Shown here one piece after another: positions 14,756 through 18,912 of a DNA stretch of 25,371 nucleotides. The stretch is from a virus. A program made the translations under genes and the position numbers. The stretch spans positions 1-25,371 of IMG/VR virus record IMGVR_UViG_3300030329_000742. One strand, written 5' to 3'. Each line of letters begins with the position of its first letter. Position 1 is the stretch's first letter. Under the pieces are notes generated by a model. It ran no database searches. It was not told the DNA's origin and saw only the letters and a list, made by a program, of their open reading frames with translations.

Positions 14756-16375
14756 TTACTGTTGCCCCATTTCCGCGATTTGAGCGACCTTCAATCCAGC
14801 GTCAGCCAACTGCGGTGCAGCCGCCGCTCCGGCCTGCAGCATTTCTGCCTGTTGCCTCTGTCCACGCATCTCAGCCACTTCATTCTCATCACGCATGATT
14901 CTCTGTGGTGCGCCGTTAATCTCGGCCAAAGACCGCGTAATTTCGTCAGTGTTGAAATTATCCATGACGGAAGGATCAACGACAGCAATGGCTTGAACGC
15001 TTTCCAGAGTTCTTAAAATTCCAACTCCTTCCGGCGCCCTCATGGCCTGTGTTAGTGGTGAAACATATTCAATTTCGTATTCACCCCCGGCCTCATCAAG
15101 AATAGGCGGCTTCGGAGGAATTAATCCCTGCTCGGAAAGAACGGAAAGTTCACGTTCTATAAGTGGTCCCAGCGTCTCAGACTGCTGCCTTCCTACCGTA
15201 GGCGCGAGCAAGGCCCCCTTCTCCTGGGCGCGCTGCAGAACTTCCGTTGCAGTCATAGAAGGGCTGTCAACAAGGATCTGAAATAAAGTCACAAGGAAGG
15301 AATCATTTATTTGCTTCCTTCTCTGCTCCATCATTTCAAGGCCAATATCCACACGCGCTCCTGTAAAGAGAGGCTGGATAGGAGCCTGCGACCGGCCATC
15401 CATTCTTGCAAAGGTTGCGGCCCCGGGCTTGGAATTGACGGGGAGAATCACGCCATCGTCTGCAATAATCAAAGGTGGGTCCACAGCCTTTTGACCAGCG
15501 CGGATAACCGTCTTTGACATTTCATTTATCATTTTGATGTCAGGCAACACTGTCATACTTGGGCTGCGGCCATAAATTTCCCGGGGACCGGTGTTATACC
15601 TCGAGAGGATATAACCCATGTCGTCCATGCCGCCTTCCTCAATTAACTGCTGCTCCTTAACCTCATAATAGCCTGAGAAGAAACGGCGGTTCTTACGGTC
15701 CCGTGCATTTATATCACGATCCGTCCGTGGGCAGCAGACATGCAGCAGCTCAACCTTGTCATCAGGCTTTTCAGCCGCCAGCTTACGGAGGTTGGAGGAT
15801 AGATCACCATCCTCAAACATGCGTAGTGCCTGCCGTGCCGTTACCTTGAAAGTGCGGAATACCGTATCAATACGGCCCATTTCGTTCTCGGCAAGGTACA
15901 GGTCCGATAGATGAACATGCCGGTACATCAACCCGCCTTCAGGATGTTCATCAACGAACATGCCGGCAGTGCCGAACGCACCGATCGACATATAGCCTTC
16001 ATGCATCTGGGAAGAAAAAAAGGATTTCGGAGAATACCGATAGGCAAACATAATGCTTGTCACCTGGTCAAACCAGAGACGGACCTGATGATCCTTGTTA
16101 AGCATGGGGTTGGTGGAACGTAACTGGTGCCACCTCGCGCCTCTTGGTGTCAGAAGACTCTCGACGGCAGACGCAAAGCGTTCACAGGCGAGGGCAGCGG
16201 TGGCGTCATATAATTTAGATGTACGTTTATCGCCTGCTGTCAGCTCACCCGTGAAGATACGCGAGCGCGGTAAAACACGCTCGGCTATTTCTTCCCAATG
16301 ACTTTCCCAGACGGCCCTGTCATTCTTGAGACGGGCAAACCTGGAAAAGATTTCCCCGGTATTCGGAGCAGCCAT
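14756..16375 (-). CDS. Portal protein (head-tail connector)
   Basis: A 539-residue protein of the T7 gp8-type connector family. Recognisable segments are RAVWESHWEEIAERVLPRSR near the N-terminus, DATAALACERFASAVESLLTP, MSIGAFGTAGMFVDEHPEGG, PSMTVLPDIKMINEMSKTVI and SPSMTATEVLQRAQEKGALL. The C-terminus is a long Ala/Gln-rich helix (QAEMLQAGAAAAPQ), the barrel helix. Twelve copies form the channel through which DNA is packaged and ejected; it binds the large terminase and tail tubular protein A. The length agrees with the family. ATG 16375 is preceded by TTAGGGGTT, which are the last codons of the small gene upstream. Confidence 0.92.
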   Translation of the reverse strand: MAAPNTGEIFSRFARLKNDRAVWESHWEEIAERVLPRSRIFTGELTAGDKRTSKLYDATAALACERFASAVESLLTPRGARWHQLRSTNPMLNKDHQVRLWFDQVTSIMFAYRYSPKSFFSSQMHEGYMSIGAFGTAGMFVDEHPEGGLMYRHVHLSDLYLAENEMGRIDTVFRTFKVTARQALRMFEDGDLSSNLRKLAAEKPDDKVELLHVCCPRTDRDINARDRKNRRFFSGYYEVKEQQLIEEGGMDDMGYILSRYNTGPREIYGRSPSMTVLPDIKMINEMSKTVIRAGQKAVDPPLIIADDGVILPVNSKPGAATFARMDGRSQAPIQPLFTGARVDIGLEMMEQRRKQINDSFLVTLFQILVDSPSMTATEVLQRAQEKGALLAPTVGRQQSETLGPLIERELSVLSEQGLIPPKPPILDEAGGEYEIEYVSPLTQAMRAPEGVGILRTLESVQAIAVVDPSVMDNFNTDEITRSLAEINGAPQRIMRDENEVAEMRGQRQQAEMLQAGAAAAPQLADAGLKVAQIAEMGQQ

Positions 16376-16585
16376 TTAAACCCCTAACAACGTATTTTTC
16401 TGAACTGCTGCAACATCAGTGTTGCGTGGAGTTCCCATTAACGTGCTTTGCATTCCGTTGCGCGGTGCGGAACCACCACCGTAATTCGCCGCAGCATCCC
16501 TCTGAGCCTTATCCAGACGCGCACCCATCGAGGATGCGGGCAGCTTCTTACCACCTGATTGCCGGTACATACCAGGCACACACAT
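16376..16585 (-). CDS. Small MCV...TLLG family protein, third copy
   Basis: A 69-residue protein, MCVPGMYRQSGGKKLPASSM at the start, QSTLMGTPRN in the middle and KNTLLGV at the end. It shares the MCV start, the STLM-G motif and the TLLG tail with two genes 80-530 bases upstream, but has a Gly/Ala-rich linker instead of a Pro-rich one. Small proteins with a STxLTG...TLLG C-terminus are common next to portal or tail genes of short-tailed phages; their role is not known to me. The start at 16585 lies one base after the stop of the 24-residue gene, with AAAGGTAAATAGG in front. Its final codons serve as the portal ribosome site. Confidence 0.72.
   Translation of the reverse strand: MCVPGMYRQSGGKKLPASSMGARLDKAQRDAAANYGGGSAPRNGMQSTLMGTPRNTDVAAVQKNTLLGV
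16379..16387 (-). promoter_or_regulatory. Ribosome binding site for portal, embedded in TLLGV codons
   Basis: TTAGGGGTT codes for Leu-Gly-Val at the end of the third small paralog and lies three bases (the TAA stop) before the portal ATG. Confidence 0.6.
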
Positions 16586-16586
16586 C

Positions 16587-16661
16587 CTATTTACCTTTAG
16601 GCTTCGGCTTTTTTGGCGGTCTACCGCGTTTAGACCCATACGTTCCCTTACCTTTCGGCAT
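16587..16661 (-). CDS. 24-residue basic miniprotein (MPKGKGTYGSKRGRPPKK type)
   Basis: A short minus-strand gene, ATG 16661 to TAG 16587, encoding MPKGKGTYGSKRGRPPKKPK plus four residues (PKGK). Ten of 24 residues are Lys or Arg; the GRPPKK core resembles an AT-hook. Very similar miniproteins starting MPKGKGTYGSK occur, as I remember, in many tailed phages beside head genes, which is the main reason to trust it. The start is four bases after GGGGGG of the upstream tail codons (stop TGA, then T, then ATG), the same TGATATG junction as between the first two paralogs. It could bind DNA or neutralise charge inside the head; this is inference. Confidence 0.7.
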   Translation of the reverse strand: MPKGKGTYGSKRGRPPKKPKPKGK

Positions 16662-16662
16662 A

Positions 16663-16884
16663 TCACCCCCCTAACAATGTCGGACGCCCGACATTCGGTT
16701 CACCCAGAACGCCACCGGCGCCCGTCATTAATGTGGATCTACGGCCCCCGGCCTGAACCCGCGCACGGCGCCTTGCCCTTGAACCGCTACCATCATCAGG
16801 CACGGAAGCAGGTTCAATGGGAGCAACAGGAGGAGGGGCAGGTGGGGGTTGAGGTTTTGGTGGACTAGGTGGGCCTACACACAT
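16663..16884 (-). CDS. Small MCVG...TLLGG family protein, second copy
   Basis: A 73-residue protein: MCVGPPSPPKPQPPPAPPPV (Pro-rich N-terminal third), an Arg-rich centre (GSGSRARRRARVQAGG), then RRSTLMTGAGGVLGEPNVGR and PTLLGG. It is clearly paralogous to the genes on either side (same first four residues as the first copy, same ST-x-(L/M)-TG motif, same tail). There is no signal peptide, so Cys2 is not a lipoprotein site; Cys2 would be exposed if Met1 is removed. The ribosome site TTAGGAGGT is perfect and lies in the end of the upstream copy. Confidence 0.75.
   Translation of the reverse strand: MCVGPPSPPKPQPPPAPPPVAPIEPASVPDDGSGSRARRRARVQAGGRRSTLMTGAGGVLGEPNVGRPTLLGG
16666..16674 (-). promoter_or_regulatory. 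Ribosome binding site for the miniprotein, embedded in TLLGG codons
   Basis: TTAGGGGGG codes Leu-Gly-Gly and ends four bases before ATG 16661. It repeats the arrangement seen after the first paralog, with the same TGATATG stop/start junction. Confidence 0.6.
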
Positions 16885-16885
16885 A

Positions 16886-17113
16886 TCAACCTCCTAACAA
16901 GGTTTTGCCAATGTTGGCTTCAGTTTCATCCCCCATTGATCCCGTCAGGATCGTGGATGAACGGCCTTTCATGGACAGTCTACGCCTGCGCTCCGCAGCC
17001 GCTGCCGCATTAACGGCAGGATCATCCCTCGTCGGAGGGGGTTCAGGCGGCTCTGGGGGTGGAGGTAGCGGCGCCATCTTCGGCATTTTTGGCGCAAATG
17101 GTCCAACACACAT
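16886..17113 (-). CDS. Small MCVG...TLLGG family protein, first copy
   Basis: A 75-residue protein: MCVGPFAPKMPKMAPLPPPP, a Pro/Glu stretch, AVNAAAAAERRRRLSMKGRS, then STILTGSMGDETEANIGK and TLLGG. The start at 17113 is chosen because MCVG matches the second copy and GGAG precedes it; the in-frame ATG at 17119 is possible but unsupported. Its first 71 bases overlap the end of the GNAT-like gene in another frame. The Pro-rich arm followed by a basic helix and conserved tail suggests a structural adaptor at the portal or in the head, but no function is shown. Confidence 0.72.
   Translation of the reverse strand: MCVGPFAPKMPKMAPLPPPPEPPEPPPTRDDPAVNAAAAAERRRRLSMKGRSSTILTGSMGDETEANIGKTLLGG
16889..16897 (-). 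promoter_or_regulatory. Perfect Shine-Dalgarno embedded in TLLGG codons of first copy
   Basis: TTA GGA GGT encodes Leu-Gly-Gly and differs in one base from the consensus TAAGGAGGT. It ends four bases before ATG 16884 (stop TGA plus T), fixing that start. Confidence 0.8.
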
Positions 17114-17597
17114 CTTCATTCTCCAGTCGGGTTTTTGTCCACGAATAGCAGTGATAAGGCACTCTGTTCTGCCCATAATCCTCAAGAGTGGCTTCACGCC
17201 TGGCACCCAGCAATTCCAGCCAGCGATGGGCCACATGGTGATTGTCATGCGTCCAGCATTCCGCACGGACGCATCCCGCATCAATCAGGTCCGGCATCAT
17301 CTCCCGGTTGATGTGACGCGTCACCGACAACGCCACTTTCGGCCAGAGATCCGTCGCATACATCCACACGCTGACCACCAGGGGCCTCATTTCCGTGGCT
17401 CCCCAGGTAGCTACAGGCGTCTCCCCATAGCGCGCAGTATACTTCAAACCGCTTCCAGCAACAGTTCCGACTGCCAGCATCTCCGGCGTCCGGGCAGTCG
17501 TTACCGGCCATATTTCTTCCGCATCGAGTTCACGCATATTCCGCGCGATTTCCACCACATCCGGGTACCGGGCATGGCGAATCTCAACCAAACTCAT
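17043..17597 (-). CDS. GNAT-like virion protein (T7 gp13-type)
   Basis: A 184-residue protein from ATG 17597. It has an N-terminal VEIRHARYPDVVEIARNMRE, then ATDLWPKVALSVTRHINREM and a C-terminal AECWTHDNHHVAHRWLELLG. This is the fold pattern of the acetyltransferase-like proteins that many short-tailed phages encode next to terminase or portal genes, related to T7 gp13. The pyrophosphate-binding Q/RxxGxG/A loop of active GNATs is not evident, so an enzymatic role is doubtful. The gene overlaps the large terminase by 14 bases. A GTG nine bases upstream (17606) is an alternative start. The last 23 residues are read from DNA shared with the first MCVG gene. Confidence 0.75.
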   Translation of the reverse strand: MSLVEIRHARYPDVVEIARNMRELDAEEIWPVTTARTPEMLAVGTVAGSGLKYTARYGETPVATWGATEMRPLVVSVWMYATDLWPKVALSVTRHINREMMPDLIDAGCVRAECWTHDNHHVAHRWLELLGARREATLEDYGQNRVPYHCYSWTKTRLENEDVCWTICAKNAEDGAATSTPRAA

Positions 17598-18912
17598 TGT
17601 AATCACTTATCACGACAGGACGGCCCCCCGGACCCCTGCCAGTCTGTGCCATCATGGCATAATCACTCTGATCCCCATCCCTGAGACCAATCGCAGCATA
17701 ACGCATTGAATCCGCACAATGCGAAGAAGCATCATGGTTGGGCCGCTCCCGCCAGGTGTTCTGGCGGTCATTCCACTGCCGATGATAATGACGGAGCCAC
17801 TTCAGCCCCTGTGAACAATTATGCCGGTCAAAATGAAGAGTCGGAATCAAAGCCCGTACCGCCTCGATGCCGTCCTGAAGCCCCAGCTTCGCGACAATCG
17901 TCGGGCGTACCCCCAGCGACTGCAGCATCTCATAACGTGATGAACCGCTACCAAGCTCACGAACAAGAACATCATGGGGAAAATAATGACGACCATAAAC
18001 ATAAGGTTGAGCGCGTAAGTGAGCGATGTAATGATGCAACCCCTCCCCGGAACTTTCATAGTAATCAATAATCCTGTGACCGGATTCTCCGCGTATCGAC
18101 TGGCCGAACCAGATCGCGGTCGAATCCCGCATCCCGAGATCCCAGCTCGTCCAGACCTCCGCGTTAGGTTCCCACTTCACGGAACCGACCTGGCCCTGCA
18201 ATTCTATACGGTCCAGAGCCTTGGCGTAATAGGCCCCAATTAAAGCCGCACTCCAACTGCACTCGAATTCCTGCTCATACTGCGATTCATCCATCGTGTC
18301 CCGCGCAGCCTGCAGTTCCCTCTCGGGAATAATGTTCGTCTCCGAGGCAGGGAACCGCATGGCGAACCACTCGTCATCACCCTTCTCCATGTTGGCAAGC
18401 GCAGTGTCATAAATCGTTTTAAACTGGTTTGTCCCGCGTGGCGTCCCGATCCAGAGAGCCTTCCCCGTACCGAAATCCGAAAGAGCGGGACGGACAATCT
18501 CAGGGAAAAGCCTTGCATTCATATCCGCATATTCATCAAGAACTGCCGCATCCAGCCTCAAGCCCCGGAGGGCATCGACGTTCTCACCTCCCAAAAGCCA
18601 TATCCGCTTCCCGTCAGGCAAGTCACATCTTAATTCAGCCTCATTAAACTTAACCATGGGAATGACCCCGGCATATTCACGGAGCATAACCCAGGCAATT
18701 CTCTTGGCGGCAGCATATGTCGGCGCAATATAGGCCCCCTGCGCACTCCTCCTCTCACACTCCAGAATTTCCCGTAAAAGCCAGTTAATCGCCATGACGG
18801 TTTTACCGAAACGTCTATGACAGACAGCAACATTAAAACGCCGGGCATTGTCGTGAAACTTCTCCTGCAGAGGACGTGGCGTATACGGAATCGTAATTCT
18901 AGGATGTGCCAT
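17584..18912 (-). CDS. terL: Terminase large subunit
   Basis: A 442-residue packaging motor. Walker A is CHRRFGKT at residues 31-38, a typical terminase variant; Walker B is LDEYAD at 125-130, with the catalytic Glu at 127; the coupling motif is ALWIGTPRG. The C-terminal RNase-H-like nuclease starts with VWTSWDLGMRDSTAIWF (first catalytic Asp) and ends with HDASSHCADSMRYA (last Asp). The ATPase pumps DNA through the portal and the nuclease cuts concatemers. The length fits a compact terminase. ATG 18912 overlaps the oxygenase-like gene by 14 bases. Confidence 0.95.
   Translation of the reverse strand: MAHPRITIPYTPRPLQEKFHDNARRFNVAVCHRRFGKTVMAINWLLREILECERRSAQGAYIAPTYAAAKRIAWVMLREYAGVIPMVKFNEAELRCDLPDGKRIWLLGGENVDALRGLRLDAAVLDEYADMNARLFPEIVRPALSDFGTGKALWIGTPRGTNQFKTIYDTALANMEKGDDEWFAMRFPASETNIIPERELQAARDTMDESQYEQEFECSWSAALIGAYYAKALDRIELQGQVGSVKWEPNAEVWTSWDLGMRDSTAIWFGQSIRGESGHRIIDYYESSGEGLHHYIAHLRAQPYVYGRHYFPHDVLVRELGSGSSRYEMLQSLGVRPTIVAKLGLQDGIEAVRALIPTLHFDRHNCSQGLKWLRHYHRQWNDRQNTWRERPNHDASSHCADSMRYAAIGLRDGDQSDYAMMAQTGRGPGGRPVVISDYNEFG

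Follow-up and report, generated by a model that had tools for sequence, protein, structure and literature searches.

Terminal Leu-Leu-Gly codons of small genes upstream of a T7-type phage portal gene carry both a conserved protein end and a Shine-Dalgarno-like codon bias

According to PMC2784483 and Eyre-Walker (1996) as cited there, a synonymous codon bias toward Shine-Dalgarno (SD) sequences at gene ends is general in E. coli and other prokaryotes. As in the genes presented here, the site in that system is formed by the final codons of the upstream gene, 4–11 nt before the next start, and biases the choice of synonymous codons; unlike there, a conserved C-terminal protein motif is encoded here by the same codons, so that the two constraints can be separated with the help of homologs. 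For the proteins, one of the closest described systems is gp6.7 of phage T7, of which residues 2–15 surround the portal barrel and bridge the portal to the internal core (PMC11784390). T7 gp6.7 starts with MCFSPKIKTPK and ends with KSAFGGKK, and its gene is located 5′ of the portal gene, as is gene A in the present locus. T7 gp6.7 corresponds to DUF5476 and PHROG 1391, with the PDB entries 9jyy, 9jyz, and 9jz0.

The window, i.e., the whole stretch of 25,371 bases that was analysed (an IMG/VR virus record), carries a T7-type structural module on its minus strand. There, the terminase gene (17584–18912, −) is followed by a GNAT-like gene (phrog_308; 17043–17606, −), the small genes A, B, D, and C, and the gene for the portal (14756–16375, −), a T7 gp8-type head-tail connector (PF12236; Pfam 1.7e-124). 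Beyond the portal gene, the module comprises a protease/scaffold-like gene and genes for the major capsid protein, adaptor and nozzle-type tail proteins, and internal virion proteins. The GNAT-like gene overlaps gene A by 71 nt in another frame, which is long for this operon. Translation yields 75 aa for gene A (16886–17113, −; MCVGPFAPKMPK...GRSSTILTG...KTLLGG), 73 aa for gene B (16663–16884, −; MCVGPPSPPKP...GRRSTLMTG...RPTLLGG), and 69 aa for gene C (16376–16585, −; MCVPGMYRQSGGKK...STLMGTPRNTDVAAVQKNTLLGV). As the initial annotation had described, these three start with MCV, carry STILTG, STLMTG, and STLMG, and end with TLLGG, TLLGG, and TLLGV, respectively. Gene D (16587–16661, −; 24 aa, MPKGKGTYGSKRGRPPKKPKPKGK) had been overlooked there; it starts 1 nt 3′ of the stop codon of B and was recognized by its ORF, its translation, and its conservation in related loci (33 distinct copies). 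D is basic, and longer forms of it (MPMGKGTYGS..., up to 49 aa) occur in many marine podovirus loci.

Both A and B match phrog_831 (E 4.7e-18 and 1.7e-11, respectively). PHROG 831 is a phage protein family annotated as of unknown function that includes epsilon15 p03, phiV10p06, and HTVC010P gp03 and gp04. The family is widespread upstream of T7-type portals, and orthologs of A are present in most related loci. Between terminase and portal, relatives were found in one copy each in phiV10 (where the relative is annotated as similar to epsilon15 p03), BPP-1 (bbp22), BcepC6B, and a Vibrio phage, and in two copies each in HTVC010P, Lederberg, Baldr, and ct8d5349. The family members elsewhere share with A and B the match to the whole family profile and the position between terminase and portal, whereas the clade of the window has more tandem copies, MC starts, and inserted proteins with different middles between the same ends. 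In this clade, the region consists of A, a variable set of genes, and C, with the variable genes encoding unrelated middles and again an MC start and an [ST]LLGx end. The slot after A holds in some relatives of the window (L003:2553, L007:1405, L010:1422, L011:2626) a 102–108-aa protein that starts with MC, contains GLLG internally, and ends with KSLLGG or TILGG, for which the one member tested matched no PHROG family.

Gene C matched neither phrog_831 nor any other PHROG or Pfam family, and a Pfam search with A, B, and D gave no match either. C constitutes a separate family, and in almost every related locus it immediately precedes the gene for the portal. In an hhalign comparison, the alignment of C with A was confined to the C-terminal motif (STILTG..KTLLG on TILxG..KTTxLG), with a score reached by none of 100–150 column shuffles and none of 150 block shuffles; C and A thus appear to share this motif, a similarity that is weak yet above chance. 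Judged by these profiles, A and B are one family and C is another with a common C-terminal motif, and the term tandem paralogs, which had been applied to all three genes, fits A and B but extends to C only loosely. A profile search of solved structures with A and C found no relative. AlphaFold returned for A a single helix (residues 32–51) with the remainder as coil (mean pLDDT 67, pTM 0.28), and a protein predicted to be mostly coil offers no fold to search structures with.

SD sequences could be placed before each of the small genes and the portal gene (energies are anti-SD duplex energies, with the host anti-SD assumed to be CCUCC). The SD of A, GGAG (17121–17124, −; −6.4 kcal/mol), lies within the 3′ end of the GNAT-like gene. 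Those of B (AGGAGG, 16890–16895, −; −10.9 kcal/mol) and D (AGGGGGG, 16666–16672, −; −11.5 kcal/mol) lie in the last codons of A (TTA GGA GGT) and B (TTA GGG GGG), C is preceded by a weak AAAGG within D (16594–16598, −; −3.9 kcal/mol), and the SD of the portal gene, AGGGG (16381–16385, −; −5.9 kcal/mol), lies in the last codons of C (TTA GGG GTT). Up to the next start, the tails read TTG TTA GGA GGT TGA T-ATG in A, TTG TTA GGG GGG TGA T-ATG in B, and TTG TTA GGG GTT TAA-ATG in C; a complement of the anti-SD inside the upstream coding sequence, 4–11 nt before the next start, was found at B, D, and the portal gene. TTA makes up 14% of the Leu codons in the window, and GGA plus GGG 42% of the Gly codons, so that the probability of TTA-GGR occurring in each of the three tails is about (0.14 × 0.42)^3 = 2e-4. 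From these sequences, ribosome binding and coupling are predicted at the tail sites of A, B, and C. The initial annotation had regarded each tail as the ribosome site of the next gene, with selection possibly acting through translation of the portal and its neighbours as well as through the protein. SD-like codons are indeed present in all three tails, but since D sits between B and C, the tail of B would serve D and not C, and since the ribosome site of C is the AAAGG in D, only the tail of C bears on the portal. Elsewhere in the window, GGGGGGGAG upstream of the start of a 972-aa gene (6527, −) represents a ribosome site embedded in a 563-aa gene, encoding Leu-Arg-Gly-Gly-Asp, i.e., residues other than LLG.

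Because alignment A1 was too divergent for a scan of the collection, tails were collected by degenerate DNA patterns. All patterns require YTNGG; hence, only loci anchored by the portal or by C were used to test which residue occupies the Gly position. The matches listed comprise 299 tails (271 distinct), which group into 159 clusters at 80% identity. A mechanical procedure assigned the next starts; the automatic gene chains built for all loci proved noisy and provided examples only. Tails were split by the distance of the Gly codon to the next start (near, with the start 4–13 nt downstream, or far), and expected values were derived from the codon usage of the own locus. In the 134 near-start clusters among the matches listed, the second Leu codon (Leu2) ended with A in 75 of 129 cases (58% vs 33%; expected 42.7; z 7.2) and the tail Gly was encoded by GGA or GGG in 77 of 132 (58% vs 34%; expected 44.7; z 6.1). 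The controls from the same matches gave 51 of 123 A-ending codons for Leu1 (41 vs 34%; expected 41.8; z 2.1) and 38 of 100 GGA or GGG codons for the conserved internal Gly of the same proteins (expected 34.4; z 0.8). In the 23 clusters without a near start among the matches listed, Leu2 ended with A in 5 of 23 (22 vs 21%; expected 4.8) and the tail Gly was GGA or GGG in 9 of 23 (39 vs 36%; expected 8.4); many of these far tails are epsilon15-like and hence not fully independent. Clustering lessens shared ancestry without removing it. The contrast between near and far tails persisted at 60% and 50% clustering. Duplex energies of the matches listed followed the same pattern, with −5.53 observed near a start vs −4.60 after synonymous resampling (p 3e-7) and no shift in the far tails (p 0.8). 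Among 54 orthologs of A, GGR was used for the tail Gly in 28 of 54 vs 38 of 206 for other conserved Gly residues (p 2e-6), and TTA or CTA in 31 of 54 for Leu2 vs 5 of 52 for Leu1 (p 1e-7). The synonymous codon bias varies with how far away the next start lies, and these tests support the earlier proposal that a protein motif and an RNA signal share the same bases and are both selected.

Could the TLLG tail be a protein motif only, with its SD look a matter of codon usage or chance? Any TTR-GGN yields a partial SD, and GGT or GGC was found at the tail Gly in 55 of the 134 near-start clusters (41%, among the matches listed), whose tails are weaker than the synonymous null. However, the codon usage of the own genome was exceeded solely where a start is near, at Leu2 and the tail Gly but not at Leu1 or the internal Gly, by which this reading is refuted as a full account, and we consider it extremely unlikely. 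Non-SD codons directly before a gene had been named as evidence against a shared use of the bases, and in part this objection applies; the 55 clusters of this kind, with TTG TTG GGC GCT TAA T-ATG in L022 as an example, limit the RNA signal to a preference or strong bias rather than a fixed code. The synonymous conservation anticipated for the last codons likewise takes the form of a Leu2 and Gly bias near a start, but not that of a conserved synonymous site in the strict sense, as the third-base entropy of the tail Gly is 1.91 bits, which is not low and indicates a shifted preference.

A second alternative is that the TLLG tail is a mere by-product, with Leu-Gly-Gly imposed by selection for a suitably spaced AGGAGG and without any role in the protein. 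The far tails argue otherwise: they retain LLG with ordinary codons, e.g., CTG CTG GGC or CTG CTC GGT, a codon choice of the kind that had been requested as a counter-example, though here ahead of distant starts. Among 77 A/B proteins, for which the tail was not used for selection, 74 end with LG plus 0–2 residues, and in two more LG stands just ahead of 3–4 extra residues. Only one (L085) has lost the LLG end, reading SLRGY, with AGAGGG still present before the next start, and Glu was found at the Gly position in none of the 77. LLG is also kept ahead of extra residues, as in a Baldr protein (SSLLGGKKV) and in L106 (TLLGIRSS), where Gly is encoded by GGT and the SD has moved to the added Arg-Ser codons AGG AGT. 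What speaks for a by-product is the C family, in which the Gly position is occupied by Gly (36), Glu (8), or Arg (3), with GGG (23), GAG (7), and AGG (3) among the codons, a drift that mostly keeps the GG or GAG core; in addition, other genes followed by a close start show a roughly twofold enrichment of Gly near their ends. For A and B, the by-product reading is largely refuted, and as a whole we consider it very unlikely. Judged by the homologs, the tail Gly in A and B is a protein constraint, and in C this position seems to be governed more by the RNA than by the residue. In the C genes of L067, L068, and L070, Gly is replaced by Arg (AGG), and AGGG is retained before the portal start.

The double use of the tail codons is real, but it is an ordinary rule in tightly packed phage operons. 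Other close junctions from these loci (163 clusters) had a duplex energy of −5.08, compared with −3.55 when synonymous codons were resampled (p 5e-14), and the shift exceeds that of the TLLG tails. In T7, gene 7 ends with AAG GAG GTA TAA GTT ATG before gene 7.3, where Lys-Glu-Val codons do the same. As other junctions are at least equally biased and the effect has already been published, the RNA part is ordinary. The strong sites in the tails of A and B, together with the overlap of the stop codon with the next start in many relatives, might still suggest a dedicated and unusual coupling device that evolved here and by which the portal and its neighbours would be made in a fixed ratio. Such a device is quite improbable in view of the bias at the other junctions, the different residues used by T7 gene 7, and the weaker site of the portal gene. 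Moreover, the upstream neighbour of D varies, so that D would be served, depending on the locus, by a TLLGG tail or by the end of a different small gene with its site in TAGGAGTGCGCT. Among the papers listed by a literature search on the motif strings, only Japanese stiltgrass came up.

With T7 gp6.7, the window proteins appear to have in common the small size, an MC..P...PK start, a GR(K/S)S motif, a Gly-rich end (KSAFGG in gp6.7), and the position upstream of the portal; they differ in that the similarity is weak and in that the window contains at least three such genes and T7 one. Of 155 clusters among the matches listed, 127 (82%) have Cys (72) or Gly (55) as the second residue, compared with a background of 3.3% among the long ORFs of these loci. 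The profile of A aligned with the gp6.7 family end to end in hhalign, with a probability of only 19–20% and the best segment placing residues 1–16 on 1–16, where the contact of T7 gp6.7 with the portal barrel is located; this score was reached by none of 100 column shuffles and 0–2 of 100 block shuffles. The gp6.7 family model phrog_1391 gained no match from A or from elsewhere in the window, and none of the records tested had both PHROG 1391 and PHROG 831 at the gp6.7 position. With a weak similarity and the gp6.7 model missed, A may be said to work like gp6.7, not to be gp6.7. From these resemblances we infer that the A/B family may represent minor virion adapter proteins resembling T7 gp6.7; a literature search found no virion, proteomic, or structural report on PHROG 831 proteins. 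A gp6.7 relative with a solved structure, Gp17 (PDB 9vvp chain S; 74 aa, 16 chains), is useful for modelling.

The proteins could instead be counterparts of T7 gp7.3, the nozzle-assembly scaffold with a C-terminal loop at the adaptor-nozzle junction. They share with it the small size, a gene position upstream of the portal, and a conserved C-terminus, and PHROG 831 weakly matches the gp7.3 proteins from three phages (E 7e-4 to 8e-3). T7 gp7.3 ends with GGGINI, not with LLG, and homology was rejected, as the profile similarity was no better than that of composition-matched controls (69 of 150 block shuffles reached the score) and the C-terminal 40 columns alone were not significant. We regard a gp7.3-like identity as possible but doubtful.

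Based on the genes, their families, the codon biases, and the N-terminal profile similarity, we consider it likely that the LLG-tail codons are under independent protein and RNA constraints and that the proteins are gp6.7-like minor virion parts. The A/B proteins (PHROG 831) are small and largely unstructured, and they conserve MC or MG followed by Pro/Lys at the start, a GRxSTILTG motif, and a KTLLGx end. The portal barrel may be the docking site of the MC..P..PK start, and a different core or tail protein that of the C-terminal motif. The protein constraint would retain the Leu-Leu-Gly end with or without a following gene; the RNA constraint would come into play where the next start follows within about 4–13 nt, favouring synonymous tail codons that pair with the 16S anti-SD, as at any close junction here. 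LLG plus one residue, a stop codon, and 0–1 nt would place the Gly codon at the right spacing by happenstance. In the C family, the RNA constraint would dominate at the Gly position and allow drift among Gly, Glu, and Arg. The different middles seen between the same ends further raise the idea, in our view rather unlikely, that TLLG, stop codon, ribosome site, and MC start form a compact junction serving both neighbours, which would make small genes with unrelated middles swappable before the portal and the array a modular set of gp6.7-like virion proteins.

The RNA effect as such is ordinary for compact operons. The natural homologs studied here offer a clean case for separating the protein constraint from the RNA constraint on the same codons, and for PHROG 831, a common phage family, a testable role is proposed, in which its members would act as gp6.7-like adapters between portal and core.
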